The notes beneath the pieces are model-generated. The model saw only the letters and a list, made by a program, of their open reading frames with translations, did no database searches and had not been told where the DNA came from. From the NCBI GenBank assembly GCA_030550095.1, contig JAUQQA010000012.1, forward strand, positions 1 to 61,407: 61,407 bases of DNA. Direction: 5' to 3'. A program made the position numbers and the translations under genes. This document shows, one piece after another, positions 8,881-52,701 of this stretch. Positions within the stretch are counted from its first letter, which is position 1; each line of letters begins with the position of its first letter. This DNA is from Chloroflexota bacterium (lineage in GTDB: Bacteria > Chloroflexota > Anaerolineae > J036 > Brachytrichaceae).

Positions 8881-11800
8881 ATGTCCCACAAGACGAAATG
8901 GCTTGTTTTGCTTCTGCTCATCGCAAGCGCCGCCTCTTTCGCTTCCAACGCTCGTGGGCTTATCGATCCAGAGCAGCTTCAAAGCGAATCAGAACAGACC
9001 TCTGAGGCGCTGATCCATCAGCTCATCGTAAAGTACCGAACGCCTAAGGACACAATAGCGCAACCTTCCTCGCAACAAAATCAAGCGCGTGCGCTCGAAG
9101 CGCGCCTAGCGCGCTTGAACGAAATCGCTCCGATCCCCTTAACCCTTTCGCGCATCATGACGAATGGGGCACTTGTGGTGCGCTTATCCAAGGGCGTCTC
9201 GGCGGAAGAAGCGGAACAGATCGCAGCACAACTCAGCCTCTCGCCCGAGATCGAATACGCTGAACCCGACTACATCCTCCAACCCCACACTCTCACCCCG
9301 AATGACCCAGAGTATAGCGAGCAGTGGCATTACTTCGACACTTACGGCATCAACCTGCCACAAGCATGGGAGATCACCCGCGGCAACTCTAACGTTATCG
9401 TCGCTGTGATCGATTCAGGTCATCGCCCACATCCCGACCTACAAAGTCGCATCATTGGGGGCTACGACTTCGTCACAGACCCGAGCCGAGCTGGCGATGG
9501 CGATGGACGTGATTCAGACCCTACAGACCCTGGTGATTTCTGTGACGGCTCAAGAAGCTCATGGCACGGCACGCACGTCGCTGGCACGATCGGCGCGGTG
9601 ACCAACAACGGGTTGGGTGTTGCTGGCGTCACGTGGGATACGCGCTTGCTCTCCGTGAGAGCGCTAGGGCGGTGTGGTGGTGTCCTTTCAGACCTGATCG
9701 ACGCTATACGTTGGGCGGCTGGGCTTGAGGTTGCCGGCATCCCGAGAAACACCACGCCAGCGCGTGTTCTGAACCTCAGCTTGGGCGGCAGGTTCGCGTG
9801 CTCCTCATCCTTACAGGAAGCCATTCACGAGATCAACGCCGCAGGCGCCGTCATTGTCGTTTCGGCAGGCAACAGCAACGCTCCAGCAAGCACGGAAGCC
9901 CCTGCATCCTGCGAGGGCGTGATCACCGTTGGAGCAACCAACCGCTACGGCATGCGCAGCTTTTACAGCAACTACGGCCCCCTCATTGATGTGAGCGCCC
10001 CCGGGGGCGATCTCATGGACGGCGGTGTTCTCTCGACGGACAACGCTGGCGCAACCCTCCCTGGAGAGGATACTTACAAGCGCAAAATTGGAACCAGCAT
10101 GGCTGCTCCTCACGTCGCTGGGGTGGTGGCGCTCATGCTGGCACTCGATCCTTCACTCAACTACACCCGCACCGAAGCGCTCCTGAAGGCAACTGCAAAA
10201 CCTTTCGCCCCCAATCATTCATGCGTTGGGGACTTCACCTGCGGTGCCGGCATTGTGGACGCTCACGCTGCGCTCCGTGCCCTTCTCCCTCAACAGCAAC
10301 CCCCGGGCGCATTCCAAAAGGAAACTCCGGCGAATAACACCGACGAGCACCCCTTAGATGTAGTGCTCGCGTGGACAAGACCCAGTGGCTTCGTGAACCA
10401 TTTCCGTTACTGCCTGAGCACTTCGCCGTGCCAGCCCCAAACCTCAGTCGGGAGAGACACCTCGGTGGTCGTCCAGAATTTGAACCCAGGCACCACCTAC
10501 TTCTGGCAGGTGCGCGCTTGTGCTGATCCCAACTGCACGGTTTACACCGAGGCGGATAGCGGGCGCATCTATCAGTTCACCACGCAGCGCCCTGATGCCA
10601 CTGCGGTGCGCAAGCTGACACCAAAGAATGGCGCAACCCGAGTTGCATTGACAACCACACTTGTCTGGCAAGGCGAAGCACCTCGCTATCGCTACTGGGT
10701 GTGGGATGCTGAAGGAGTAGTTGTGCCTACTGCGACGACCCCGTTGACACAGGGCCAGATCGGCGGCTTGCAGCCTGGGCGCGTGTATTTCTGGCAGGTG
10801 CAGGCGTGCGAAGACACTGCGTGCCAGAGTGTGCAGGATGCCGACGGAGGCACGCCTTCCCGCTTCTCCACGGCTTTTACACCTGTTCCCTTCCTGAAAC
10901 GTGCTCCTGCAGCGCAAGCGATCTCGCGCCCCATCCAACTGAACCTACGCTGGTTTGCTGGCGGCGACTTGGTTGACCACTACCGATTCTGCTTGGGCGT
11001 CACCCCCACGCTTTGCACACCCTCGCTTCCCGTTTTTCCGCCTACTGCCACCGCGCAGATCGTGGATGGGCTGACGCAAGCGGAGACTTACGCTTGGCAG
11101 GTGCGTGCCTGCTCCGATCCTGCATGCACGGTTTACACCGACGCGAACAATGGTGCGCACAGCGCCTTCACAACGGCGCAACAGCCACGCGCTTTCGCTA
11201 AGCTCTTCCCGCTGAACGGGACCGTGATCTTCAATCGGTATGTGACGCTAACAGTGCAGCCCGCAGATGGCGCCATTGGCTATGCTTTCTGCTTCGACAC
11301 CCAACCCGGCTGCGTCCCACGCAGCATCGGCGCCACTCCGATCGTCACGCATGGCCCGCTCAGTGTAGGCACAACTTTCTACTGGCAGGCGCGCGCATGT
11401 GGCGACGTAGCATGCACCGTGTACAGGGAAGCTGAGGGCGGCTACTGGCAGTTCTCCATCGCCCCACCGCCTCAAGCGTTCAGCAAGATTGCGCCCGCCA
11501 ACGGCGCCAGCGAGCTTTCCTCGACGGTGACCCTTGAGTGGGAGGCAGTGCCAGGGGTCGATCACTACCGCTACTGTTATACCAACGAGCTTACCTGCAT
11601 CCCAGAGACCAGCGCTGGGGCTACAAACCGCGTCACCATCTCAGGCTTACAAGCTGGAGCTAACTACTTATGGCGCGTGCGCGCTTGCACTGATGCTGAG
11701 TGCACGATCTTTACGGAAGCAAACGCAGGGCGTCCGTGGACGTTCACAGTGCGCGCCCGCTCTGACAGCTTTTCCAAGCTATACCCCGCGGACCAAGCTA

Positions 11801-13398
11801 AGCTCCCCACTGGCACCGTGGTGCTCCGGTGGAGCGCCTTGGCAGGTGCAAACCACTATCGTTATTGCCTCACCACAAACTCAACGTCCTGCTCACCCAA
11901 TGTTTCGGTTGGAACAGCGACTCAAGCAACCTTCACAATCACGAACACAAATTTCCGACCCGTCTACTGGCAGGTGCGCGCTTGTCTTGATGCGAACTGC
12001 AATCGCTATGTAGATGCAGACAGTGGGCAAGCATGGAGTCTTCTGTTCACTCCCTTCCCCTTCCTGGTAAAAACTGATTTGAGTGACTCAAAAACCCCCT
12101 TGTCTGTAGGGTTCAGCTGGCTCAGAATGCTCACCTACCCTGTTGTGGACCACTACCGCCTGTGCTACAGCACTAACAGCGAGGGGTGTGTGCCAAACAT
12201 TGTGCTAACAGACGTGCTTGCTTTGAGGACTAATATCTTTGCTGCTCGAGTAGAAGGGCTGCTCCCAAACACAACGTATGTTTGGCAGATTCACGCTTGC
12301 CTGGACCACGAATGTGATACCTACTACGCCGCCGACCGCGGTAAGCCTTCAAGATTCACCACTGCCAGCCTGCCTCCTCCTTTTGGCAAAGCTACACCAC
12401 CCAATGGCTCATCCGTGCAGCAACCCGTGAGGCTTCAATGGACGCGCACAGGTGAAAACCCAGACGACTACGTTTACTACTACTGCTACAGTGAGGATGC
12501 GCGATGCACCCCGAACCGCTTTGCGGCTACACAGCTCTCCGTGTATGTTTACGGGTTGCGCCCGGGTGCGACCTACCGTTGGCTTGTGCGCGCGTGTGAT
12601 AGCATAGTGGGATGCAGCGCACAGCGAGAGGCGGATGAAGGACAAGCGTGGAGCTTCACCACGGAGCACTTGCCGACCACCTTCTCCAAGCGCGCACCTG
12701 TGAATGAAGCCGAAGATAGACTGCTCGAGGTGCGCTTAGAGTGGGAGGCAGTGCCCCAAGTGCATCACTACCGCCTGTGCTACAGCACAGAATCCACTTG
12801 CGAACCGCAGCAGAACGTCGGACCCTCAACCAGCGTCGTCTTGACAGGGTTGCAACCGAGCACAACTTACACCTGGCAGGTCCGCGCCTGCGCGGATGTC
12901 GAATGCACCACGTTCGTTGATGCCGACAACAGAACGCCTTGGCGCTTCCGCACAGGCTCTCTCGGCATTGATGGTTCAGCACCAGGAAGCATCGATGCGG
13001 AGTTGCTCACTAGCCACCCCGAAACTGGTCTCCACCCAAGACCGTTGATGGCTCATCTTGGTGAGCCGTTCACCCTCACCGTGCGTCTCGTGAACGCGCA
13101 TGCATTCACGGCGACAGTGCACGTGTCTCTGGCACTGCCTACGGGTATCGAAACCCTTACTGCCACAGGGCTGCATTCGCAGAACCAGCCGCCAGCGCTC
13201 TCGTGGAACAGCGTAGTGGTTCCGCCGAACACGACGAAAGACATTGACCTACGCGTGCGGGTGAACGCACAGCTGCAAGCTGAACAGAACGTTAGGCTCG
13301 AAGTGAGTGATGCCAACAGCACTGTGGTCTCAGCCCCAGAGATTGTGCTGCTTCAGCCAAGAACCTATTTGCCGCTCATTCTCCATCGGGGCCGTTAA
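8881..13398 (+). CDS. Secreted subtilisin-family protease with nine cysteine-bearing repeats
   Basis: A 1505-residue exported S8 protease. A signal peptide covers about residues 1-25 and an I9-like propeptide about 45-135. The catalytic triad is Asp178 (VAVIDSGH), His232 (HGTHVAGT) and Ser406 (GTSMAAPHVAG). Residues 474 to about 1361 hold nine repeats of about 97 residues, each a fibronectin-III-like strand pattern. The consensus contains HYRYC, a second Cys about 8-10 residues later, TTYxWQVRAC and a fourth Cys four or five residues on, so two disulphides per repeat are likely. A C-terminal beta domain on conserved-repeat/CARDB lines (about 1375-1490) ends in RTYLPLILHRGR. It would digest extracellular protein, with the repeats as adhesion or spacer modules. 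Confidence 0.9.
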   Translation: MSHKTKWLVLLLLIASAASFASNARGLIDPEQLQSESEQTSEALIHQLIVKYRTPKDTIAQPSSQQNQARALEARLARLNEIAPIPLTLSRIMTNGALVVRLSKGVSAEEAEQIAAQLSLSPEIEYAEPDYILQPHTLTPNDPEYSEQWHYFDTYGINLPQAWEITRGNSNVIVAVIDSGHRPHPDLQSRIIGGYDFVTDPSRAGDGDGRDSDPTDPGDFCDGSRSSWHGTHVAGTIGAVTNNGLGVAGVTWDTRLLSVRALGRCGGVLSDLIDAIRWAAGLEVAGIPRNTTPARVLNLSLGGRFACSSSLQEAIHEINAAGAVIVVSAGNSNAPASTEAPASCEGVITVGATNRYGMRSFYSNYGPLIDVSAPGGDLMDGGVLSTDNAGATLPGEDTYKRKIGTSMAAPHVAGVVALMLALDPSLNYTRTEALLKATAKPFAPNHSCVGDFTCGAGIVDAHAALRALLPQQQPPGAFQKETPANNTDEHPLDVVLAWTRPSGFVNHFRYCLSTSPCQPQTSVGRDTSVVVQNLNPGTTYFWQVRACADPNCTVYTEADSGRIYQFTTQRPDATAVRKLTPKNGATRVALTTTLVWQGEAPRYRYWVWDAEGVVVPTATTPLTQGQIGGLQPGRVYFWQVQACEDTACQSVQDADGGTPSRFSTAFTPVPFLKRAPAAQAISRPIQLNLRWFAGGDLVDHYRFCLGVTPTLCTPSLPVFPPTATAQIVDGLTQAETYAWQVRACSDPACTVYTDANNGAHSAFTTAQQPRAFAKLFPLNGTVIFNRYVTLTVQPADGAIGYAFCFDTQPGCVPRSIGATPIVTHGPLSVGTTFYWQARACGDVACTVYREAEGGYWQFSIAPPPQAFSKIAPANGASELSSTVTLEWEAVPGVDHYRYCYTNELTCIPETSAGATNRVTISGLQAGANYLWRVRACTDAECTIFTEANAGRPWTFTVRARSDSFSKLYPADQAKLPTGTVVLRWSALAGANHYRYCLTTNSTSCSPNVSVGTATQATFTITNTNFRPVYWQVRACLDANCNRYVDADSGQAWSLLFTPFPFLVKTDLSDSKTPLSVGFSWLRMLTYPVVDHYRLCYSTNSEGCVPNIVLTDVLALRTNIFAARVEGLLPNTTYVWQIHACLDHECDTYYAADRGKPSRFTTASLPPPFGKATPPNGSSVQQPVRLQWTRTGENPDDYVYYYCYSEDARCTPNRFAATQLSVYVYGLRPGATYRWLVRACDSIVGCSAQREADEGQAWSFTTEHLPTTFSKRAPVNEAEDRLLEVRLEWEAVPQVHHYRLCYSTESTCEPQQNVGPSTSVVLTGLQPSTTYTWQVRACADVECTTFVDADNRTPWRFRTGSLGIDGSAPGSIDAELLTSHPETGLHPRPLMAHLGEPFTLTVRLVNAHAFTATVHVSLALPTGIETLTATGLHSQNQPPALSWNSVVVPPNTTKDIDLRVRVNAQLQAEQNVRLEVSDANSTVVSAPEIVLLQPRTYLPLILHRGR
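10300..12963 (+). repeat. Nine tandem protein-coding repeats of about 97 codons
   Basis: These are the diverged repeats within the subtilisin gene. Repeats 2, 4 and 7 have lost or moved some of the four cysteines seen in repeats 1, 5 and 9. The DNA copies are clearly diverged from each other, so they arose by old duplication and not by recent slippage. Confidence 0.8.
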
Positions 13399-40621: not shown

Positions 40622-42598
40622 ATGCCCAGTCGGAAACACTATTCGGTTCTCGCCCTTGCTGCGACAACGAGCTTGTTGTTGGCAGCTTGCGGTGCGCCTG
40701 CGGGTACGCCCGTCGTGCAGACGGTCGTGGTGACGCAGGAGGTGGTCAAGGAGGTCGAGAAGGAGAAAGTAGTTGAGATCACCGCAACCCCCGTGCCTGA
40801 GTGGACCACCCCGCACCCGATCCTGAGCGACATCCGCGTGCGCCAAGCGATCGCATACTGCACCGACCGCGAGAAGTTGATCGAGTCGGTCTACGGCTAC
40901 CTGCCCGAGGAGGATCGCAAGAAGCTGCTCATGGACACCTTCATCCCGAAAGACTCGGTCTGGTACGCCAGGAACGTGGACCCCAACGCAAACATCGTGG
41001 ATTACCCGTATGACCCCGAGAAAGGCAAGGCGCTGTTAGAGGAAGCGGGCTGGAAGCTGCCTCAGGGTGGCTCGATCCGCGTGAACGACAAAGGTGAGCC
41101 GTTGGCGCTCCGCTTCACCACCACCAACGCGCCGTTCCGCCAGACATGGGGCGCCGTGTTCGTCAGCCAGCTCCAGCAGTGCGGCATCCAGCTCCTGCCG
41201 TCGTACATTCCCGGCTCGATCTGGTTCGGCGGCAACTCGGGTCTGCGCCGCCGCGATTTCGAGCTGGGCGCCTTCGCCTGGGTCGGTGAGACCGAGCCAC
41301 CAGGTGTGACGCTCTACGCGTGCGACCAGATCCCGCGCCCCGATAACGGCTGGCAAGGGCAGAACTACATGGGCTGGTGCAACGAGCGCGCGAGCACGGC
41401 GATCAAGCAAGCGAACAACACGCTGAACGACGCTGAGCGCAAGCGCTTGTATGCCATCGTGCAGGAGGAGTTCAGCAAGGACATGATTTCGCTGCCGCTC
41501 TTCCAGCGCCTTGAGGCCACCGCCCACAATAAGGAGCTGAAGGGCTTGAAGGCAGACCCCACGGAGTACTACACTGCTAGCATCGCTGATTGGGAGCTGC
41601 CCGGCAAGGACACTGTGATCATCGCCCTCGGTCAGGAGCCCGCTTCGCTGTTCCTCCTGCAGGAGAGCGCTGCCGTGGCGACCATCGTGGGACAAACGGT
41701 GTTCGGCACTCTCTACACGCAATACAGCTACGGCTTCCAGCCCGTGTTGCTCGAGGGTGATCAATTCCCGACCATCGAGAACGGCGGCGCGCAGAACGTC
41801 GAGGTTGAGGTGCAAGAGGGCGACCTCGTGGTAAACGCCGATGGCGATGTGGGCACCCTCAAGGGCGGCAAGCTCATTGACCGCGAGGGCAATGAGCTAT
41901 CGCTGAAGGGCAAAGACATCAACGGCAACGAGGTCGAGATCAAGGCGGGCGTCAAGCTGCCGCAGCTCACCGTCACCTACAAGTTCAAGCCACACAAGTG
42001 GAGCGACGGCGAGCCGGTCAAGAAGGCGGACTGGGAGCTGGGCTACAAGGTCGCCTGCGACCGCGAGTCGGGCGCCGTGAGCTTCTTCACCTGCGACCGC
42101 GTGGTCAGCCACGAGGTGCTTGACGACAACAGCTACCGCGTCGTGTACGCCAAGGGCTACCAGCCGCCGACCTACTACCTGCCACCCTTCGGCTACTATC
42201 CGTCGCACCAGAAGTTGGCGGATGGTCGCACCCTGGCTGAAGTGCCGCCGAAGGAGTTCAAGAACCTGAAAGAGGTGACCGATACGCCGCTGGGCACCGG
42301 ACCGTATCGCATCAAGGAATGGCAGCGCGGTCAGCGCATCGTGCTGGAGGCGAACCCCAACTTCTGGAAGGGTGAGCCAAAGATCAAGAACGTGATCTTC
42401 CAGGTGTTCGAGGGCGGTCCTGCGGGCGCTGTTGCGGCGTTGCTGCAAGGCACGGTGGATGTGGTCGGCAAGGAAGTGCTCGGCGCTGGCCAGGAGCTAC
42501 AGACCGTCATCGAGGAAGCGAATAAAGGCACCATCGTCGCTGAGCCGATGGGTAGCCCGACCTGGGAGCACGTGGACTTCAACCTGAACGTGCGCTGA
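40622..42598 (+). CDS. Peptide-binding lipoprotein with circularly permuted fold (SBP_bac_5 type)
   Basis: A 658-residue solute-binding protein of a Dpp/Opp-type importer. The signal peptide ends in LLLAAC (lipid on Cys23), then a charged Val/Glu/Lys linker. Normal family members run from an N-terminal strand, through a TGPYRI-type region, to VRQAIAY and a C-terminal lobe. Here the part that is normally last (HPILSDIRVRQAIAYCTDREK, cited in part as DIRVRQAIAY, to ASIADWELP; about residues 64-327) comes first. The normal N-terminal part (KDTVIIALGQEPASL onward) follows and ends at HVDFNLNVR, exactly where VRQAIAY would usually continue. An acidic insertion of about 50 residues lies near 395-445. 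The ATG follows GAGGAG. Confidence 0.88.
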   Translation: MPSRKHYSVLALAATTSLLLAACGAPAGTPVVQTVVVTQEVVKEVEKEKVVEITATPVPEWTTPHPILSDIRVRQAIAYCTDREKLIESVYGYLPEEDRKKLLMDTFIPKDSVWYARNVDPNANIVDYPYDPEKGKALLEEAGWKLPQGGSIRVNDKGEPLALRFTTTNAPFRQTWGAVFVSQLQQCGIQLLPSYIPGSIWFGGNSGLRRRDFELGAFAWVGETEPPGVTLYACDQIPRPDNGWQGQNYMGWCNERASTAIKQANNTLNDAERKRLYAIVQEEFSKDMISLPLFQRLEATAHNKELKGLKADPTEYYTASIADWELPGKDTVIIALGQEPASLFLLQESAAVATIVGQTVFGTLYTQYSYGFQPVLLEGDQFPTIENGGAQNVEVEVQEGDLVVNADGDVGTLKGGKLIDREGNELSLKGKDINGNEVEIKAGVKLPQLTVTYKFKPHKWSDGEPVKKADWELGYKVACDRESGAVSFFTCDRVVSHEVLDDNSYRVVYAKGYQPPTYYLPPFGYYPSHQKLADGRTLAEVPPKEFKNLKEVTDTPLGTGPYRIKEWQRGQRIVLEANPNFWKGEPKIKNVIFQVFEGGPAGAVAALLQGTVDVVGKEVLGAGQELQTVIEEANKGTIVAEPMGSPTWEHVDFNLNVR

Positions 42599-42788: not shown

Positions 42789-43979
42789 ATGGCAAACTAT
42801 TTGGTACGCCGGTTCATCCTGGTGTTCGTGATGGCATTTGTGGTCTCGCTGGCGTCGTTTGTGTTGCTGTACTCGGCGCCGGGCGGACCGCTGGAGCAGC
42901 TTGTGGCGCTCCAAAGCACCACGCGCCGCCCAGATCCGGACGAGATCGAGCGCATCATGAAACGCTATGACCTCGATCTCAACCTGTTCGTGCGCTACCT
43001 GCGCTGGCTCACAGGACATCCTCGTGGACCTATCGTCATCGGCGGGCAAGAGGTTTTTGGCGATCTTCAGGTGGGCTGCCTGAAAGAAGGACAGGCGCGA
43101 TTGGTGTATCCCGATGGACGCGTGGTGGAGATCAACTGCGCCAAGCCCGTGTTCCTGCGCGATCTCGCTGACCGCCCCACGGGGAACGGTGTGATCCGCC
43201 TCGACTTTGGGCGCTCGCAGCAGCTTGCGCGCGAACAGCCTGTGATCGAGCTGATTGAGTCGCGCTTGGGCAACACCCTCCTCCTCATGGGGCTTTCCAC
43301 CTTCTTCGCCATTGCGCTCTCGATCCCGATCGGGATTTACTCCGCCGTCAAGCAATACTCGCGCTTCGACTATTTCTTCACCACGTTGACCTTTTTCGGC
43401 TCGGGGATGCCGACCTTGTTCACAGGCGTGATGGGGATTTTGGTGTTTGCATTGCTGTTCCAGCGCCTTGGCTTGCCCTATCTCCCCGCCGGTCTAGTGG
43501 AATCCAACCGCGACGCCGTGGTGCCGCTGCTCGGCACGATTAAGGCTGGGTCGTTCGCAGACCGCCTCTGGCACTTGATCCTGCCCGTCGCCGTGCTGAC
43601 GTTCTTTAACCTTGCAGGGTGGACGCGCTTCATCCGCTCCTCCATGCTTGAGGTGTTGCGGCAAGACTACGTGCGCACAGCGCGCGCGAAGGGTGTGGTC
43701 GAGCGCCTCGTCATCCTCAAGCACGCCCTGCGCAACGCGCTGATCCCCTTCGTCACCTTGCTCGCGGGCGTGCTGCCCACCCTCTTCGGTGGCGCGATCA
43801 TCACTGAGAGCGTGTTCAACTGGTCAGGCATCGGGCGCCTGTTCATCAACGCGCTGGTGGCAAGCGACTACCCCGTAGCCATTGCCTACGTGTTGATCTC
43901 GACATTCTTGACGTTGATCGGGTTCATCCTGTCCGATGTGCTCTACACCGTGGTGGACCCGCGCATTCGGTTAAGCTAG
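42789..43979 (+). CDS. dppB: Peptide ABC importer permease (DppB type)
   Basis: A 396-residue permease, longer than the usual 305-340. The first helix (about residues 8-28, FILVFVMAFVVSLASFVLLY) is followed by an enlarged external loop (about 60-150) that contains two cysteines. Then come the five helices of the BPD_transp_1 core, with the coupling EAA-like loop at RTARAKGVVERLVILKHALRNAL (cited as RTARAKGV and LRNAL). A TACAAT box at 42748-42753 may be a second promoter after the terminator. It is followed by dppC after 8 nt. Confidence 0.9.
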   Translation: MANYLVRRFILVFVMAFVVSLASFVLLYSAPGGPLEQLVALQSTTRRPDPDEIERIMKRYDLDLNLFVRYLRWLTGHPRGPIVIGGQEVFGDLQVGCLKEGQARLVYPDGRVVEINCAKPVFLRDLADRPTGNGVIRLDFGRSQQLAREQPVIELIESRLGNTLLLMGLSTFFAIALSIPIGIYSAVKQYSRFDYFFTTLTFFGSGMPTLFTGVMGILVFALLFQRLGLPYLPAGLVESNRDAVVPLLGTIKAGSFADRLWHLILPVAVLTFFNLAGWTRFIRSSMLEVLRQDYVRTARAKGVVERLVILKHALRNALIPFVTLLAGVLPTLFGGAIITESVFNWSGIGRLFINALVASDYPVAIAYVLISTFLTLIGFILSDVLYTVVDPRIRLS

Positions 43980-43987
43980 GAGTGCGT

Positions 43988-44992
43988 ATGGCGACAACGA
44001 GCGTTCCGCTAACCAAACCCACAGCGCCAGTGCTTGCGGGCGCGCGCTCAGAGAGCCAATGGGCGATCGTGCTGCGGCGCTTCCGCAAACACCGCATGGC
44101 GATGATCTCGCTAGGGGCGCTGATGGTGGTCTTCTTGGCTTCGCTGTTGGCACCGGTGCTCGCGCCGTTCCCGCGCGATGCAACGGGGTTAGCCCCGCGC
44201 TTCTCTCCTCCTCTCACTGCGTACAACGGCCAAATGCACTGGCTGGGCACTGATCACGTCGGGCGTGATTTCTTCACGCGCCTGCTGTACGCCGCGCGCA
44301 TCACCCTGAGCATCTCGTTTTTCGCGGCGACGCTCGCCACCCTGATCGGCATGACCCTCGGCGCGCTTGCTGGCTACTTCCGCGGCTTGGTGGATAGCAT
44401 CGTGATGCGCATCTTGGAGTTCATGGCGTCAATCCCCGATTTCCCCATCCTGCTCATCGTGGCTTCCATCCTCGCCAGCCGCCCCGAATCGCTGCCGATC
44501 CCGCGCTTCGTGTTGGACGCCATGGGAGCGCTGATGCTGCTCAGCCCAGTGGGCAATGAGCGTGCACAAGTGGTGGTGATCATCGTTGTGCTCACTGCGT
44601 TCGGCTGGATTAGCGCTGCGCGCCTGATGCGCGGCATGGTGCTCTCCGTGCGCGAGCGCGACTTCATCGAGGCGACACGCGCGCTCGGCGCCTCAAACGC
44701 GCGCATCATCCTACGCCACGTGGTGCCCAACGCCTTCCCGCCGCTTGTGGTGAGCTACACGCTGAGCCTGGCAGGCGCGCTCACCGCCGAGACGGCGCTC
44801 AGTTTCCTCGGGATCGGCATCACCGACCCAACCCCAACTTGGGGCAACATGCTTCAGTTCGCAACAAACTTCATGCTCACCGACCCCTGGGTGCCGCTGA
44901 TCCCAGGCTTGCCCGTGGTGATTGCTTCGCTCGCGTTCAATTTCATCGGCGATGGGCTGCGCGACGCCCTCGACCCCCGCTTGAAGATGTAA
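43988..44992 (+). CDS. dppC: Peptide ABC importer permease (DppC type)
   Basis: A 334-residue permease. The OppC_N segment (FRKHRMAMISLGALMVVFLA) gives the first helix, and the core has WLGTDHVGRDFFTRLLYAAR, the standard DppC entry. The EAA loop is in EATRALGASNARIILRHVVPN (cited as EATRALGASN). The ATG at 43988 is chosen because AGGAG lies 5 nt upstream, and the GTG at 43982 lies inside that site. Middle residues about 170-200 carry a small insertion relative to E. coli. Part of the importer operon. Confidence 0.92.
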   Translation: MATTSVPLTKPTAPVLAGARSESQWAIVLRRFRKHRMAMISLGALMVVFLASLLAPVLAPFPRDATGLAPRFSPPLTAYNGQMHWLGTDHVGRDFFTRLLYAARITLSISFFAATLATLIGMTLGALAGYFRGLVDSIVMRILEFMASIPDFPILLIVASILASRPESLPIPRFVLDAMGALMLLSPVGNERAQVVVIIVVLTAFGWISAARLMRGMVLSVRERDFIEATRALGASNARIILRHVVPNAFPPLVVSYTLSLAGALTAETALSFLGIGITDPTPTWGNMLQFATNFMLTDPWVPLIPGLPVVIASLAFNFIGDGLRDALDPRLKM

Positions 44993-45012
44993 GGCTAAAC
45001 TCGTGCAACGTG

Positions 45013-46059
45013 ATGGCGCTTGACACCATGACGACTTCAGTGACCCGGCTTACGACTTCGCAAACCCAAAGCACCTCCAACAACGGCGACTTGATGCTGG
45101 ACGTGCAGGACCTGCGCACGTATTTCTACACCGAGGACGGCGTTGTGAAAGCGGTAGACGGCGTGGACCTCTGCGTGCGGCGCGGCGAGACGCTCGGCGT
45201 GGTGGGTGAGTCAGGCTGCGGCAAGAGCGTCACTTCGCTCTCGATCATGCGCTTGATCAGCCCACCAGGGCGTATCGTCTCAGGCAGGATCATCTTCGAC
45301 GGCGTGGACTTGCTCACGCTGCCTGAACACGAGATGACCAAGATCCGCGGCAACCGCATCTCAATGATCTTCCAGCAGCCCACTTCGTGCTTGAACCCCG
45401 TGTTTAAGATCGGCGATCAGGTCGCTGAGGTGCTGCAGATCCATGAAGGGCTGGGCAAAAAGGCAAGTTGGGACCGCGCGGTGGAACTGCTGCGCATGGT
45501 GGGCATCCCTGAGCCACAAAAGCGTGCCCACGCGTATCCACACGAGATCTCCGGCGGTCAAGCGCAGCGCGTGATGATCGCCATGGCGCTTGCGTGCCAG
45601 CCTGAGCTGCTGATCGCTGACGAGCCGACCACGGCATTGGACGTGACGATCCAGGCGCAGATCCTGGACCTCATGCGCGAGCTGAAAGAGAAGACCGGCA
45701 CGGCGATCATGCTGATCACGCATGACATGGGCGTCGTTGCCGAGATGTGTGACCGCGTGGTGGTGATGTACGCCGGGCAGGTGGTGGAACAAGCCGACGT
45801 GAAGACGATCTTCACCAACCCGCTGCATCCCTACACCAAAGGGCTGTTGGGGTCGATCCCGGTGCTTGGGCAATTGCGCGATCGCCTAGACACCATTCCC
45901 GGCACGGTGCCGAACTTGATCGATCCGCCGCCAGGCTGTCGTTTCGAGCCGCGTTGCCAAGTGTGCGAAGGCGCAGTGCGCGAGCGCTGCCGCACTGAGC
46001 TGCCGCCTCTGCGCGAGGTGGAGCCGGGACACTGGGTGCGCACGTGGTTATACGACTGA
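45013..46059 (+). CDS. dppD: Peptide ABC importer ATPase (DppD/OppD type)
   Basis: A 348-residue ATPase. Walker A is [11 protein letters not shown], the Q-loop [10 protein letters not shown], the signature [14 protein letters not shown] and Walker [13 protein letters not shown]. The C-terminal oligopeptide/dipeptide domain carries [21 protein letters not shown] with four cysteines, a likely Fe-S or zinc site known from DppD-type subunits. The first 25 or so residues are a low-complexity Thr/Ser-rich extension. The ATG at 45013 is chosen, though 45028 is also possible. It pairs with DppF. Confidence 0.93.
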
Positions 46060-46087: not shown

Positions 46088-47113
46088 ATGAGCACTGAAA
46101 CGTTGCTTGAAGTTCGAAACCTGGTGAAGTATTTCCCGATCAAGGGCGGGTTGTTGCAGCGCACCGTGGGCTACGTGAAGGCGGTGGATGGCGTCTCGTT
46201 CACGGTGCGGCGCGGCGAGACGCTCGGGTTAGTGGGCGAGTCGGGCTGCGGCAAGACAACCGTCGGGCGCACCATCTTGCGGCTGATCCCAGCGACCAGC
46301 GGCGAGGTGCTTTTTGAAGGACGCGATGTCTTCAAGCTCAACGCGCGCGAGATGAAGGCGCTGCGCAAAGATATGCAAATCATCTTTCAGGACCCCTACT
46401 CATCACTCGATCCACGCATGCCGATTGGCGAGAGCGTCGCAGAGGGGCTGCTTGTGCATGGCGTCAAAGACGCGCGCAAGCGCAACGAGATCGTGATCGA
46501 GATGTTGCGCAAGGTGGGTCTGGAGGATTATCACGCGCGGCGCTACCCGCATGAGTTCTCCGGTGGTCAGCGTCAGCGCATCGGCATCGCGCGTGCGCTG
46601 GCGCTGCGCCCGAAGTTCATCGTGTGCGACGAGCCTGTCTCCGCGCTCGACGTGTCGATCCAGTCGCAGGTGTTGAACTTGCTCAAGGACTTACAGGCAG
46701 AGTTCGGGCTGACGTATCTGTTCATCGCGCACAACCTCAGCGTGGTGGAGCACATTAGCGACCGCGTCGGCGTGATGTATCTCGGCAAACTGGTGGAGCT
46801 CACCGACCGCGTGACGCTTTTCCGCGATCCGCTGCACCCCTACACCAAAGCGCTGCTCTCCGCGATCCCCATCCCCGACCCGACTGCGCAGAAGCGCGAG
46901 CGGATGATCTTGCAGGGCGAAGTGCCCTCACCAGTGAACCCACCGCGCGGCTGCCGGTTTCACCCGCGCTGCCCGTTTGCTGTTGACCGCTGCAAGGTGG
47001 AAGAGCCACCGCTTGAGGAGCTGCGCCCAGGACATTTCGCGGCGTGTTGGGTGGCGAAGGACGAGGTGGAGCGCGCAAAACGCCTCGAAAGTGTCTCTGC
47101 TCAAGCTGCGTAG
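46088..47113 (+). CDS. dppF: Peptide ABC importer ATPase (DppF/OppF type)
   Basis: A 341-residue ATPase. Walker A is [11 protein letters not shown], the Q-loop [12 protein letters not shown], the signature [14 protein letters not shown] and Walker [13 protein letters not shown]. The C-terminal [18 protein letters not shown] again holds the cysteine cluster. The opening VKYFPIKGG is typical of DppF. The gene follows dppD by 28 nt with a GAGGG Shine-Dalgarno site, and ends the operon at a bidirectional terminator. Confidence 0.95.
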
Positions 47114-47200: not shown

Positions 47201-50200
47201 TTACCGTCGCACGATGGGGAGGAACACGCGGACGACGTTGACGCGCGTTGTGCTCGTCCAGTAAGCTGGGAAGTCGCCGTCCGCAGCAAAGGCAACCCAC
47301 TCTGCGCTTGCTGTGACGGGTCCACTCACTGTTGCGCTCCGCGTGATCACGACGCTCTGACCTGGCCCGAGGTCATAGGCGAATCCGCTTAGCACGTTAC
47401 CGAGCACTGTATCCGTCAAGGTGTGTGTGCTCAACGTGATGCTGCCCGTGTTGCGCACGGTGTAGCAGTAGTACACCTGCGTGCCAACTGGCACCGTGAT
47501 CACAGAAGTCGTCGCGCACACGTTCGGGTTTGTCCCTACCGTCTTCGTCAGCACAATGCTGGGAAGGCTGAGTGTGAGCGCGTCTGCCTCACGCCCATGC
47601 TGTGCATCGCGATACATCAGCAGGATGCCCTGCTGCGAAGGCGAATCGAGGTCAGCATAGGCGTAGGGCGTGATCGTGATCGTGCTGCTGCCGCCGATGG
47701 GTACGGGGTTCGGCGCAAGCCCAGTCACTGCTGCGCGCGGGAAGGCAGGGTTCACCGTCATGTAGTCGGTTGCGTCGGTGCAATTGCCTGTGAAGTAGTT
47801 ATCACACGCGAGCACCTGGAAGTTGAAGGGCTGCCATGCTGATGGGTTGGTAACGCTCAAGCCAATTTGGTCGGCGCGGATGGTGAGAATGGTGTTGCCC
47901 GAGTTAAAGTCGGCGTCGCTGTAGAAGAACGCCTGGAAAGGTCCACTGGGTAGCGGACCAGCAAAGACCAGGTTCACGCCCGTGGCTGCAAACCCGGTTT
48001 GCTCGGCGTTGTAGATCACATAGTCGTCCCAGCCATCACGGTCGGTGTCCACGTAGATGTCAATCTCGAGCGGGTAATTGGGATGCGTCCGTGGTCGCCA
48101 TGTGTTCACCGCGAACTGGATGCCGAACTCCCCGTTACCGAGATTCACGGCGCGCACGCCAACGTAGCGCAGATCAGGTTTGGTTTCGTTGGCTCCACGG
48201 CCTGGCAAGGTGGTGTAGCTAAGCGGGCTGATCGCCGTGAGCGCGAAAGCGTCTATCCGCCCTGTGCGCGCGCCCTGCGGATTGCTCAGCGCGACGGTGA
48301 ACTCGTTGCTCGTAGTGACGACCACGCTGCTCACGCTCGGCGTAAGGATGCCTGCCGCACCGTGCGGCAGGATGTGCCACGGCAGCGCAACCGTGTCGGT
48401 CACATCCCCGATGAGCAGATAGCCGTCGAACTCAAAGCTGCCCAGCACGCTGCCCGTGCCCATTTGAGAGGGCGGGAAACTCCAAGTCGGGAGCTTACCT
48501 GCGTCCACAGTCCACGTGATCACGAATTGCGCGCTGTCGTTTGCGGGCACGCTAACGGTCGGCTGCACGCTTGGGATCACCGCGCCGCTTGCTGCATCGT
48601 CGGCATAACGGAAGGTGGGCGTAATGGCGTATTCGCGGGTGATCGGGCTGTAGTTGCGCACCACCACGCTGCGCGTGAAGGTGTGTGTGCCCGTGAGCAG
48701 GCGGTGATACCCAAGTGAGAGGCTCACGCCATCGGTGTAGCGCTCGCCGTTGAGAATTTGCGGATTCGCCGCCCATGCCGCGCTCGTGCTGCTAAGCGCA
48801 CGATCAGCGCGCACTTCACCCGCGCCAATGCGGCTGATCTCTGCCAGCACGCCAGGTTGTGTCGCTGGGTTGATGAACACGTTTCGCTCAGCGGTGTTCA
48901 TCAGGCGCGCTTTCACCTCGGCTGGCGTCAGGTTTGGCTCTGCGCTGAGGAGCAACGCTGCCGCGCCCGCGACCATCGGCGCAGCCCCTGAAGTGCCACC
49001 AAATGCACGTTCACCTGTGCCGCTGCCCGACACCGCCGACACCGAAGCGCCCGGCGCGCCAATGTCTGGCTTGATGCCGCTAAAGCTGATGTTCGGACCG
49101 CGCGAGGAGGAGGCCACCATGCTGCCCACCATCGGCACCGTGATCAACGGCGAGACCGTGACGGTGACCACTTCAGTGGGAATCTGCGACTTGATGAGAT
49201 CACCCTCGTTTTTGCGAATGATGAGCGTGTCGGTGAAGTTCGAGCCGCCACCGTAGCTGAAGCTGGGCGGGTCACCCAGGACATTGTTGGCGATGAGCAC
49301 GCCGATGGCGCCGGAGACCACCGCGCGATCCACTTTCAAGCTCACGGCGCACGCACCGCGATCGATCAGCGCTACCTTGCCAGCAGGATCATCAAGGTAG
49401 GGGTCACCGGGACAACCTCGTCCAACGTACGCGATCTGCCCCGTGAAACCATTGACGATGGGCGCCCAACTCACTGTCGCCGTGTTCGAATAGTTACCTG
49501 CAATGGTGAGAGGCGCATTGATCACCAACGGGTAGGTGCGCGCACTAGGCACTTGTGTCTCTGCCACGCTGAGCACCTCAGGTGCTGAAGAGGGTGAGCC
49601 AACAATGTAGGGGCGATCGGCGCTGTTGCCCGCCGACGCGACCACGACTACCCCCGCGCGGACAGCGTTTGCCGCGGCTTCGCTCAAATCATCCTCTTTC
49701 TGCCCGTAAGGCGCGCCGAGCGACATGTTGATGATGTCCACGGCATCGCTCAAGTCGTTATCACCATTCGGATCAAGGGCGTAATCAATGCCCCTGAGCA
49801 ACGCGATGCCATTGCAACTCGAGGAAACTGCACTGCACACCTTGACAGCGTAGAGCTTGGCGCCAGGAGCAACGCCGCGATGGGTATCGCTCACGTTCTG
49901 TCCCGCGATGATGTCAGCAACGTGCGTGCCGTGCCCACCTGCGGCTGGCGATGGACCAGGCGGCGCGTCAATCGGGTTTGGGTCCTCAGAGCGCGGTCCA
50001 TACGTAGGCCAAAGCTCACCCACAAAGTCGTAGCCGCCGATCACTTTTGCCGTCGGGAAGCCTGTGTTGGCGGTGACGGTGGTGTTCTCAGTGCTGGTGA
50101 TGTGCGTACCCCACGCCGCTTGGAACGCAGCAGCTGTGCCTGGACCACCGAGGTTGGCATGGGTGTAGTCAATGCCTGAATCGAGCACCGCAACAGTAAC

Positions 50201-50788
50201 GCCTGTGCCTGTGACGCCGCGTGTGTTTTGCACGAAGGTCGCGCCGATGTAAGGCACAGTCTCGCTGAGATCGCGCTCGTAATGGCGCACGGGGCGCACG
50301 GACTTCACCCCTGGCAACTTAGCGAGCGCCTCGAGCTGCTGCGCGGGGATGCGCACAACCACTGCGTTGAGCGCTTTGGTCAGGCGTGCCTCTTCCTTCG
50401 CGCCGAGCCGCGCTGCCGCAGCAACGAAAGCATTTTGCTGGCTCGTGAGCTGAGCTGCGTAAGCCGCTTGCTCCACACCAGAAAGCTGCACACCAAAGCG
50501 CTCACGCTGTCTTGCGGCAACCACCGCAAGAGGCGGCGCTTGTAGTTGCACAACGACCTCAAGCTCCTCTTGCGCTGCAAAACGCTCCGTTAGCTTATGA
50601 GGCAGGCGCGCAGGCGCACCTGCTTCGCCAACGCGCAATGAGGGCGGGGTTTCAGCAACCATCGTGCCTGCCACCCTTGGCGTGGCTGTGCCTCCTTGAG
50701 GAGACTGAGCATGCGCTGGGAGGGAGGTTGAGAAACGAGCAAGAAGAAGCAAAACGCCCGCTGTGATCCTCAAATGATGAAGTTGCAT
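47201..50788 (-). CDS. Secreted subtilisin-family protease with PA domain
   Basis: A 1195-residue S8 protease of the lactocepin/cucumisin type. The signal peptide is about residues 1-28, and an I9-like propeptide follows (about 60-165). The triad is Asp203 (VAVLDSGIDYTH), His289 (HGTHVADI) and Ser600 (GTSGAAPMVAG). A protease-associated domain is inserted between His and Ser (about 420-515; GACAVSLKVDRAVVSGAIG). C-terminal parts are Fn3-like and a conserved-repeat domain (VYYCYTVRNTGSITL), ending in VFLPIVRR. The ATG at 50788 is chosen because GGAGG lies just upstream and the signal peptide starts there. It would cleave extracellular proteins for the peptide importer next door. Confidence 0.92.
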   Translation of the reverse strand: MQLHHLRITAGVLLLLARFSTSLPAHAQSPQGGTATPRVAGTMVAETPPSLRVGEAGAPARLPHKLTERFAAQEELEVVVQLQAPPLAVVAARQRERFGVQLSGVEQAAYAAQLTSQQNAFVAAAARLGAKEEARLTKALNAVVVRIPAQQLEALAKLPGVKSVRPVRHYERDLSETVPYIGATFVQNTRGVTGTGVTVAVLDSGIDYTHANLGGPGTAAAFQAAWGTHITSTENTTVTANTGFPTAKVIGGYDFVGELWPTYGPRSEDPNPIDAPPGPSPAAGGHGTHVADIIAGQNVSDTHRGVAPGAKLYAVKVCSAVSSSCNGIALLRGIDYALDPNGDNDLSDAVDIINMSLGAPYGQKEDDLSEAAANAVRAGVVVVASAGNSADRPYIVGSPSSAPEVLSVAETQVPSARTYPLVINAPLTIAGNYSNTATVSWAPIVNGFTGQIAYVGRGCPGDPYLDDPAGKVALIDRGACAVSLKVDRAVVSGAIGVLIANNVLGDPPSFSYGGGSNFTDTLIIRKNEGDLIKSQIPTEVVTVTVSPLITVPMVGSMVASSSRGPNISFSGIKPDIGAPGASVSAVSGSGTGERAFGGTSGAAPMVAGAAALLLSAEPNLTPAEVKARLMNTAERNVFINPATQPGVLAEISRIGAGEVRADRALSSTSAAWAANPQILNGERYTDGVSLSLGYHRLLTGTHTFTRSVVVRNYSPITREYAITPTFRYADDAASGAVIPSVQPTVSVPANDSAQFVITWTVDAGKLPTWSFPPSQMGTGSVLGSFEFDGYLLIGDVTDTVALPWHILPHGAAGILTPSVSSVVVTTSNEFTVALSNPQGARTGRIDAFALTAISPLSYTTLPGRGANETKPDLRYVGVRAVNLGNGEFGIQFAVNTWRPRTHPNYPLEIDIYVDTDRDGWDDYVIYNAEQTGFAATGVNLVFAGPLPSGPFQAFFYSDADFNSGNTILTIRADQIGLSVTNPSAWQPFNFQVLACDNYFTGNCTDATDYMTVNPAFPRAAVTGLAPNPVPIGGSSTITITPYAYADLDSPSQQGILLMYRDAQHGREADALTLSLPSIVLTKTVGTNPNVCATTSVITVPVGTQVYYCYTVRNTGSITLSTHTLTDTVLGNVLSGFAYDLGPGQSVVITRSATVSGPVTASAEWVAFAADGDFPAYWTSTTRVNVVRVFLPIVRR

Positions 50789-50835
50789 TCCGTGCCTCCT
50801 CGACCAAAGCTGTGCGTTCCGCTCAGCGCTCAATT

Positions 50836-52701
50836 CTAGCGACCGCATGCGGGCTCGCAACTTGCTTCATGGCTTGTGCGTCCTGCTTTCGCGGCAAGGT
50901 CGCGTTCGAAGGGCGGCGCCGTGAGCGTTAGCACCCCGCCGATGGCTTGACTTTCTGCACTGCGCAGCCAAGCACCAGTCTGCGGGTCGAACCAATCCAC
51001 GCGATACCAGCCCGCATCTAGTCCGCGCAGGCGAAGCTGCACGTCCCGTTGAATCGGCAACGAGATCGGCTCCGCCCGTGTAATGCGCTCAGCAAGGCGC
51101 TGTTGGTCGTAATGCGCGCTGCGCACCCACACCAACGCGCGGTCGGCACGCACCAAGCCCATGGCGATCGCTTCGTCGCAATCGCACTCCACGGGCGTGG
51201 GCGTAAATGTTGCGAGGTCCTCGTCGGCGAGGAAGCGCGCCAAGCTGCGAAAGCGCGACCACAGCGCGCCGGCATCCACGTAATCCTCCCACCACCAATA
51301 CATCGCAGTGGTGGCAAAGCCGTTGAAAGCGCTCGCCCAAAGCGCGTTGTGCAGATGCACGCCTTCGCGATTGGCCTCGTTGAGCGACTCATCCACGTGC
51401 GAGAAGCCGAACTCACCAAACAGCAACGGCTTGTTCGGCGCATCCGCTGTGAGGCGGAAGCCACCTGGGATGCTGGTGAACCAACGCGGTTGCGCGCTGT
51501 ACTCGTGCCGTTGCAGCACATCTATCTCCTCCATGCGCCAAACGAACGGGTCGCCATCGCCGACGTAGCTCAAGGTGATGAGGTGTCGGTTGACATCTGC
51601 TTCGCGCAACACGGTGGTCATCTCGCGCAGCCATGGCATGAGCTGAGGAGTCTCGATGCGCGTCGCCTCGACCTCGTTCCAGTACTCCCACGCGAGCAGG
51701 TTTGGCGAGTAGCCCCAGCGCGCGGCAATGTAGCGCAAGCGCCGCGCGAACAGCGCACGTGCTTGCGGGTCTGTGACGAAGTCGCGTGGGTCGCGCAACG
51801 GCCCGCTGTTAAGGGCGTTATAGGGGTTCTCCGCCCAAACGCCGCCTTCGTTGTCGCGGTATTCGCGGTCACTGATCAAGCTGAGCACAAGATAGACCCC
51901 GCGCTGCTCCGCAAGCGCAAAGAGCTGATCCAGCCAGTGTGCGCGCAATTGGCGATTGTCGTAGTTGCCCAAGCCTGTATCGCGCCACTCCAGCCCAAAC
52001 GACCACGGCGCCATCCACACGCGCGCCACGTTGCCGCCGTTGTCGGCAAGCGCATTGAGCCAACGGGCATAATCCTGCGCTGCGTCGTTGCGCCACCACG
52101 CGAGATTAAGCCCGATCGGGAAGAACGTGGTGCCGTCGTCAAAAGCGAGGTAGCGCGGGTTGCGTGGATGCACGCGCACGTAGCCTGGTGCATCGCGCGG
52201 CGCCACCTCGAACGTGATGGACTCGCCTTGCTGCAGGGGGTTGGTGTTAAGCAGCGGCGTGGCTTGCCATCGGCCGGCACTGGGCGGCGCAAAACGGACG
52301 CGCCAGCCGCTGCGCCATGGGTCGCGCTGGTGCAGGTACCAAAACGCCGGCACGGTGATCTGCGTGCCGTCGGGTGCGGTGAAGCGCACGCGCACATCCG
52401 CCTCAGTGGGGTCGTAGGGGTTCTCGAAGCGCTGGGCGACGTGCACGTATAGCTCGAGCATGCATAGGCGTGGCACAGGCTGCACAGGACGCGAGAGCGA
52501 AAGCGCTGCCTCAGGGTCATGAGGCGCTTGCTCGATCGAAGCTGGGCAAGGCGACACAGCGCGCGGCAGTGAGGACGTTGGCGTGGGAATGGGATGGGAG
52601 CTTAGCGAAGCGGTCGGCGCGGGTGTTGGCTGCTGCGCGGTGGCGCAGGCTGCAAGCGCAGCAAGGAGCGCGGCAAGCAGGGGAAATCGCAGGCGGTGCA
52701 T
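50836..52701 (-). CDS. DUF5060-type glycoside hydrolase lipoprotein
   Basis: A 621-residue surface glycosidase. The signal peptide ends in LAACATAQ (lipidated Cys19). A Pro/Thr/Ser linker leads to a DUF5060 beta domain (about residues 75-170), followed by a clan-A TIM barrel (about 180-520) that starts with FFPIGLNLAWW. The likely acid/base Glu is in LAWEYWNEVEA and the nucleophile in LLFGEFGFS. A C-terminal beta domain finishes the protein. Similar layouts occur in GH5-like and DUF4038 proteins of unknown substrate. It lies upstream of the subtilisin in the same direction, 47 nt apart, and may share regulation. Confidence 0.82.
   Translation of the reverse strand: MHRLRFPLLAALLAALAACATAQQPTPAPTASLSSHPIPTPTSSLPRAVSPCPASIEQAPHDPEAALSLSRPVQPVPRLCMLELYVHVAQRFENPYDPTEADVRVRFTAPDGTQITVPAFWYLHQRDPWRSGWRVRFAPPSAGRWQATPLLNTNPLQQGESITFEVAPRDAPGYVRVHPRNPRYLAFDDGTTFFPIGLNLAWWRNDAAQDYARWLNALADNGGNVARVWMAPWSFGLEWRDTGLGNYDNRQLRAHWLDQLFALAEQRGVYLVLSLISDREYRDNEGGVWAENPYNALNSGPLRDPRDFVTDPQARALFARRLRYIAARWGYSPNLLAWEYWNEVEATRIETPQLMPWLREMTTVLREADVNRHLITLSYVGDGDPFVWRMEEIDVLQRHEYSAQPRWFTSIPGGFRLTADAPNKPLLFGEFGFSHVDESLNEANREGVHLHNALWASAFNGFATTAMYWWWEDYVDAGALWSRFRSLARFLADEDLATFTPTPVECDCDEAIAMGLVRADRALVWVRSAHYDQQRLAERITRAEPISLPIQRDVQLRLRGLDAGWYRVDWFDPQTGAWLRSAESQAIGGVLTLTAPPFERDLAAKAGRTSHEASCEPACGR

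Follow-up and report, generated by a model that had tools for sequence, protein, structure and literature searches.

Swapped order of the two halves in a peptide-binding lipoprotein

The 61,407-nucleotide stretch of Chloroflexota DNA analysed here (the window) encodes a 658-residue lipoprotein that is a complete cluster C (SBP family 5, SBP_bac_5) substrate-binding protein (SBP) with its C-terminal part placed before its N-terminal part. It is very probably a natural circular permutant of a peptide-binding lipoprotein and the receptor of the importer encoded downstream. The reading frame (40622-42598, plus strand) is intact, with an ATG at 40622 preceded by GGAG and a stop codon at 42596-42598. 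Its parts are as follows.

40622 to 40690, plus strand: signal peptide with lipobox LAAC (residues 20-23) and lipidated Cys23, from the sequence
40691 to 40819, plus strand: unstructured linker (residues 24-66) from the lipidated cysteine to the start of the fold, from the sequence
40820 to 41602, plus strand: residues 67-327, normally the C-terminal part and here first, from profile and structure comparison
41591 to 41629, plus strand: junction WELP-GKDTVIIAL, where the ancestral C- and N-termini are joined with 0-3 extra residues, from alignment and model
41603 to 42595, plus strand: residues 328-658, normally the N-terminal part and here last, from profile matches

After the linker the chain opens with ILSDIRVRQAIAY, a stretch found mid-chain in ordinary peptide-binding proteins. 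The first part contains domain III, the second hinge strand and the end of domain II, while the second part contains domain I and the first hinge strand and ends in HVDFNLNVR. The junction WELP/GKD (residues 327/328) is kept in the 40 aligned members of the family; the initial annotation had placed the join of the native termini at WELPGKD, and the junction was found there, conserved and almost free of linker.

The Pfam SBP_bac_5 profile matches the protein in two stretches with 174.5 bits (cut-off 32.4), and a genome scan returned these stretches in reversed profile order, the first corresponding to profile positions 210-358 and the second to 16-177. A family profile (A1) built from 40 members was aligned to the nearest solved structure, Thermus thermophilus 2d5w, where profile positions 14-255 match residues 322-567, 273-336 match 6-74 and 378-587 match 79-311. 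The structure is thus covered almost completely (6-311 and 322-567) but in swapped order. A profile of normal-order sister proteins, used as a control on the same kind of PDB chain, gave one collinear stretch (1xoc 83-516), and the swap in the permuted family is therefore not a search artefact. Permuted sequences rotated to normal order align throughout with normal-order relatives. The C-then-N order proposed in the initial annotation is borne out by the swapped profile alignment together with the reversed Pfam order, and the segments did not fall into normal order on a longer relative. The usual N-to-C order of parts, which is common to known SBP_bac_5 members but lies outside the definition of the fold, is absent here, so the protein is filed as a permuted derivative and not as an ordinary member of the family.

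Homology to cluster C SBPs (PF00496; OppA, DppA, NikA, AppA) extends over the whole length. The permuted SBP shares with them the domains, the TGPY and VRQA motifs, the lipoprotein character and the position as first gene of a dpp/opp-type operon; it differs in that the chain is rotated, with the cut placed by the model in the first hinge strand and the old termini fused. Domain searches call the permuted SBP an ordinary binding protein, which is a warning for annotation.

The A1 alignment of the permuted clade contains six invariant cysteines (columns C26, C133, C180, C199, C425 and C437), whose conservation suggests disulfides. Normal-order sisters (alignment A2) have counterparts for only part of these cysteines.

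Predicted fold and position of the hinge

AlphaFold2 modelling with a 40-row alignment yielded a single fold, predicted with confidence along its whole length (pLDDT 93.9, pTM 0.89), and not two incomplete proteins. Together, the model and the profile coverage of 2d5w place every part of the bilobal fold, with its three domains, in a single chain. The old C- and N-termini are joined in the model by a short loop that leads with high confidence from helix 263-269 to strand 277-282. Lobes of cluster C proteins are joined by a two-strand hinge (PMC7312458). Both hinge strands are predicted in the model (236-248 and 585-599), the first hinge strand ending in the chain terminus: the cut would, by homology, lie in this first strand (585-599 in the model), with strand 236-248 as the second. 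The model chain ends about 5 residues past the long strand 585-599. The view that the new termini fall at the hinge, put forward in the initial annotation, agrees with C-terminal residues that end this strand and with the two-stranded hinge of cluster C (PMC7312458).

Foldseek and VIA-align follow chain order, and with these sequential aligners no PDB chain matched over more than about half of its length, the best query TM being 0.33 over the whole chain. Model residues 7-274 match residues ~250-590 of PDB chains with Z up to 24.8, the latter value for model 7-261 on 2d5w 311-569 (VIA-align). Since the VIA-align rows mostly span model residues 7-272 only, the fold of the N-part rests on the sequence profiles and the model. 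Among the Foldseek and VIA-align matches listed, no solved structure aligned with the whole chain in permuted order.

Distribution, single origin and selection

We scanned about 85,000 species, each represented by one genome, and examined the best 80 loci. All have the C-then-N order and 79 of the 80 hold both halves in one ORF, the 80th (L021) carrying a frameshift at the junction. Every record with a phylum name, 79 in total, belongs to Chloroflexota, and one record is untyped. In an even sample of this phylum the permuted SBP is present in 28 of 301 genomes and 13 of 178 genera, single-contig genomes included. The junction and both new chain ends are conserved in the family alignment, and the permuted SBP is, as judged from coding sequences, under purifying selection (dN/dS 0.083 against L006, both halves similar). 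Many of the loci are in metagenome bins, as an assembly or annotation artefact might have it. Conservation across independent assemblies refutes this explanation, and the single ORFs, the single-contig genomes, the clean conserved junction and the purifying selection likewise leave it next to no probability.

Frameshift-split permuted genes were seen at L021:2790-2890, exactly at the junction, and at L149. In a single-contig genome (G238:C1 near 2871731, L147) the permuted gene is frameshifted within its N-part. Split genes of this kind could be either errors or pseudogenes.

In trees of the whole sequence the permuted proteins group together as one clade (SH-aLRT 100) among normal-order relatives, and they do so again when each half is analysed alone. 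This topology argues for a single permutation event. The expectation that the order might be fixed in a clade and widespread is met by this one origin and by the 28 of 301 Chloroflexota genomes. The same trees bear on the idea that a C-part and an N-part from two different binding-protein families were fused, as opposed to one protein being rotated. The stem of the permuted clade is long, about 0.9-1.0 changes per site, and the half trees leave its exact sister unsettled, which leaves some room for such a chimera. Each half, however, gives the permuted clade the same Chloroflexota neighbours of normal order, these relatives share with it the subfamily-specific LPxLxNG...GDxVVD region as well as cysteines close to VRQA and QxxCGI, and the two halves complete one fold with neither overlap nor gap. 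We consider a chimera very unlikely and treat the protein as a rotated one.

Searches of the window's genome found several other SBP_bac_5 ORFs and no second permuted SBP. On plasmids, 670 records match at ~25% identity and none looked permuted, their piece order having been checked in part; the sole place covering 80% of the query comprises two fragments that fall on an ordinary SBP already annotated as such.

Six loci (L054, L056, L063, L067, L072 and L085), mostly from Anaerolineales, carry a normal-order relative directly upstream of the permuted gene, and these tandem genes share subfamily features with the permuted SBP. Two normal-order SBPs also flank each of the sister operons L152, L155 and L158. 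Tandem copies beside the permuted gene and in sister operons mean that the material for the usual route of duplication, fusion and truncation is at hand, and the permuted gene probably originated when tandem SBP copies fused in frame and the outer halves were then lost. Around the 80 permuted genes we found no intermediate of duplication and, save for normal-order neighbour genes, no remnant of an upstream N-part or a downstream C-part.

A Dpp/Opp-type importer operon headed by the permuted gene

The permuted SBP gene comes first in an operon of the order SBP-B-C-D-F, with the importer genes downstream, and this arrangement is conserved in most loci. As in Dpp/Opp operons, the SBP adjoins two permeases and two ATPases with an oligo_HPY domain. 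The features of the importer are listed below.

42789 to 43979, plus strand: DppB/OppB-type permease (Pfam BPD_transp_1; Foldseek matches to 8j5q_B and 8z1y_A)
43014 to 43190, plus strand: extracytoplasmic insert in DppB (residues 76-134) that follows the scoop motif and contains the invariant cysteines Cys97 and Cys117 (alignment and model)
43982 to 44992, plus strand: DppC/OppC-type permease (Pfam)
44477 to 44563, plus strand: DppC residues 166-194, extra extracytoplasmic loop (alignment)
44839 to 46059, plus strand: DppD/OppD-type ATPase, ORF as called, with ABC_tran from residue 107 (Pfam ABC_tran and oligo_HPY; NCBIfam)
46088 to 47113, plus strand: DppF/OppF-type ATPase (Pfam; NCBIfam NF008453 above its curated cut-off)

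The permuted SBP is nearest to 2d5w/AppA/Opp4A and reaches none of the NCBIfam equivalog cut-offs; homology points to peptides as its probable substrate. Permuted paralogues with no permease gene alongside occur at L058, L062, L064, L065 and L077.

A real permutation could also have produced a protein that is no transport receptor but a sensor, an adhesin, an enzyme or a decaying gene. A side branch in Chloroflexus/Roseiflexus (L077, L081 and L115) that stands alone, lacks the lipobox and bears a C-terminal beta extension would fit such a role, as would one copy (L146) without its N-part. The main lineage, on the other hand, retains the lipobox, the conserved residues, a low dN/dS and the immediate linkage to BCDF, and for it a function other than that of importer receptor appears highly improbable.

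The window also encodes two large proteins of the subtilase family, of which one immediately adjoins the importer operon (47201-50860, minus strand) and the other lies at 8881-13398 (plus strand). The adjoining gene is consistent with a peptide-scavenging setting, which it fits without proving it.

Extra loops in both permeases of permuted operons

The permuted-SBP operons possess extra DppB and DppC loops that co-occur with the permutation, an observation new here and absent from the initial annotation. In DppB, ~55 additional residues, two of them invariant cysteines, separate TM2 from the short helix that follows the scoop motif. AlphaFold2 predicts this insert as a small beta sheet or domain at moderate confidence (blocks 62-84). 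Behind permuted SBPs, the DppB anchor distance is 120-136 residues (one 228) with at least two cysteines in 73 of 73 proteins measured, compared with 68-89 in six sister operons whose SBPs have normal order and 66-80 in a further 13 DppB proteins. DppC has ~27 extra residues in the loop between TM3 and TM4, seen among the operons compared only with permuted SBPs; the corresponding stretch measures 61-63 residues in permuted operons versus 34-46 in sister operons, two short values coming from sequences that are truncated within it. By the topology of the DppC-type permease family, the TM3-TM4 loop is extracytoplasmic. Two short DppB helices are predicted at 34-43 and 50-59, to be compared with residues 32-62 of E. 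coli DppB (PMC12136057).

Within the 301-genome sample, insert-bearing DppB was detected in 29 genomes, including all 28 with a permuted SBP, while the one remaining genome (G295) has a contig end immediately upstream of its DppB. Scores of insert-bearing proteins are separated from the rest by a wide gap, 608 versus 408 bits for the next match, which aligns only behind the insert. In a DppB tree computed without the insert, the proteins of permuted operons form one clade (support 100), joined at 97 with those of L150, L151, L152, L155, L158 and L211. The first five stand beside normal-order SBPs and L211 has no SBP alongside. For L211, whose DppB is related, an adjacent permuted SBP was considered and rejected, the neighbouring genes belonging to an unrelated amino-acid type system. 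As normal-order operons without loops join the permuted clade in this tree, a normal-order SBP with permeases lacking the loops is the likely ancestral state. Loops and permutation thus share one branch, which amounts to one correlated event and not to independent repeats, and their link may reflect hitchhiking.

There is close to an even probability that the loops are unrelated to the permutation and owe their fixation on that branch to chance or to another cause such as a new substrate or envelope, given that every case descends from one ancestor and the association counts once. A functional relation is suggested by the fact that both permeases gained loops on the extracytoplasmic, SBP-docking side, by the location of the DppB insert directly behind the scoop motif and by the finding that, the contig-end case excepted, neither trait occurs alone in any sampled genome. 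Co-adaptation of the DppB and DppC insertions with the permuted SBP is plausible from these sequence comparisons.

Proposed mechanism and comparison with known systems

By homology, the permuted protein would capture oligopeptides in the manner of a Venus flytrap and pass them on to BCDF. Fusion of the old termini would turn the N-lobe (domains I and II) into one uninterrupted segment and leave a single covalent strand to tie the lobes where formerly there were two, the other hinge strand being present in the fold as a chain end. The lipid anchor would exit at the hinge, where domain III begins, and no longer from domain I. The scoop motif of E. coli DppB inserts into the inter-lobe cleft of DppA and each lobe is touched by one helix (PMC12136057). 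The permuted receptor would dock on BC as usual. The DppB insert, which adjoins the scoop motif, and that of DppC lie on the docking face and probably adapt docking to this receptor. These permease modules may steady a receptor with one tether and a hinge anchor or tune its opening. Whether the system further constitutes a distinct importer subtype, in which matching DppB and DppC modules hold or gate such a receptor and in which docking, closing and release differ from Dpp/Opp, is a more tentative proposal that we regard as possible but somewhat doubtful.

The predicted DppB fold matches 8j5q_B and 8z1y_A of the E. coli DppABCDF and M. tuberculosis OppABCD systems and includes a putative scoop motif region. 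In contrast to both systems, ~55 extra DppB residues follow the scoop motif here and the receptor is permuted. The sister SBPs of Chloroflexota (L150, L151, L152, L155 and L158) share subfamily features with the permuted SBP as well as the B-C-D-F operon type, and the DppB proteins of these operons are the closest to those of permuted operons; the SBPs are, however, in normal order and both permeases lack the long extra loops.

An ancient dislocation of a domain from type I to type II has been proposed for periplasmic binding proteins. It is a shift between fold types, unlike the whole-protein permutation described here. Engineered permuted halves of ribose-binding protein have shown that lobe topology can be rearranged and that the fold is malleable, and chain exchange between lobes has been argued to give binding proteins their hinge motion (PMC9815098). 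Those constructs are single lobes made in the laboratory, whereas the permuted SBP is a natural permutation of a whole protein in use. The open-access literature that was searched yielded no report of natural circular permutation in SBP family 5 and only engineered or unrelated cases of permuted binding proteins. The 'circular permutation' of PMC3688454 was rejected as a precedent since it concerns transmembrane domains.

One of two lobe connections has probably been lost by evolution in an importer lineage and this state has been kept across Chloroflexota. Retention of the permutation together with changes in both permeases provides a natural experiment on flytrap proteins, and natural pairs of permuted and normal-order receptors make the hinge strands, the anchoring point and permease docking directly testable.

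A second permuted subfamily

A second permuted subfamily is found in Chloroflexus (L077:5754-8220, L081:5602-8185 and L115). Its members lack a lipobox, carry a ~150-residue C-terminal extension and have no transporter genes at the locus; they look secreted, judging by sequence. A Pfam scan of the L077 extension returned no match. A relative at L146:4430-5675 on the minus strand (G166:C1:452907-453641) has kept only the C-part and the last strand of the N-part, bears a C-terminal extension of the same type, lacks a recognisable signal peptide and is probably decaying.
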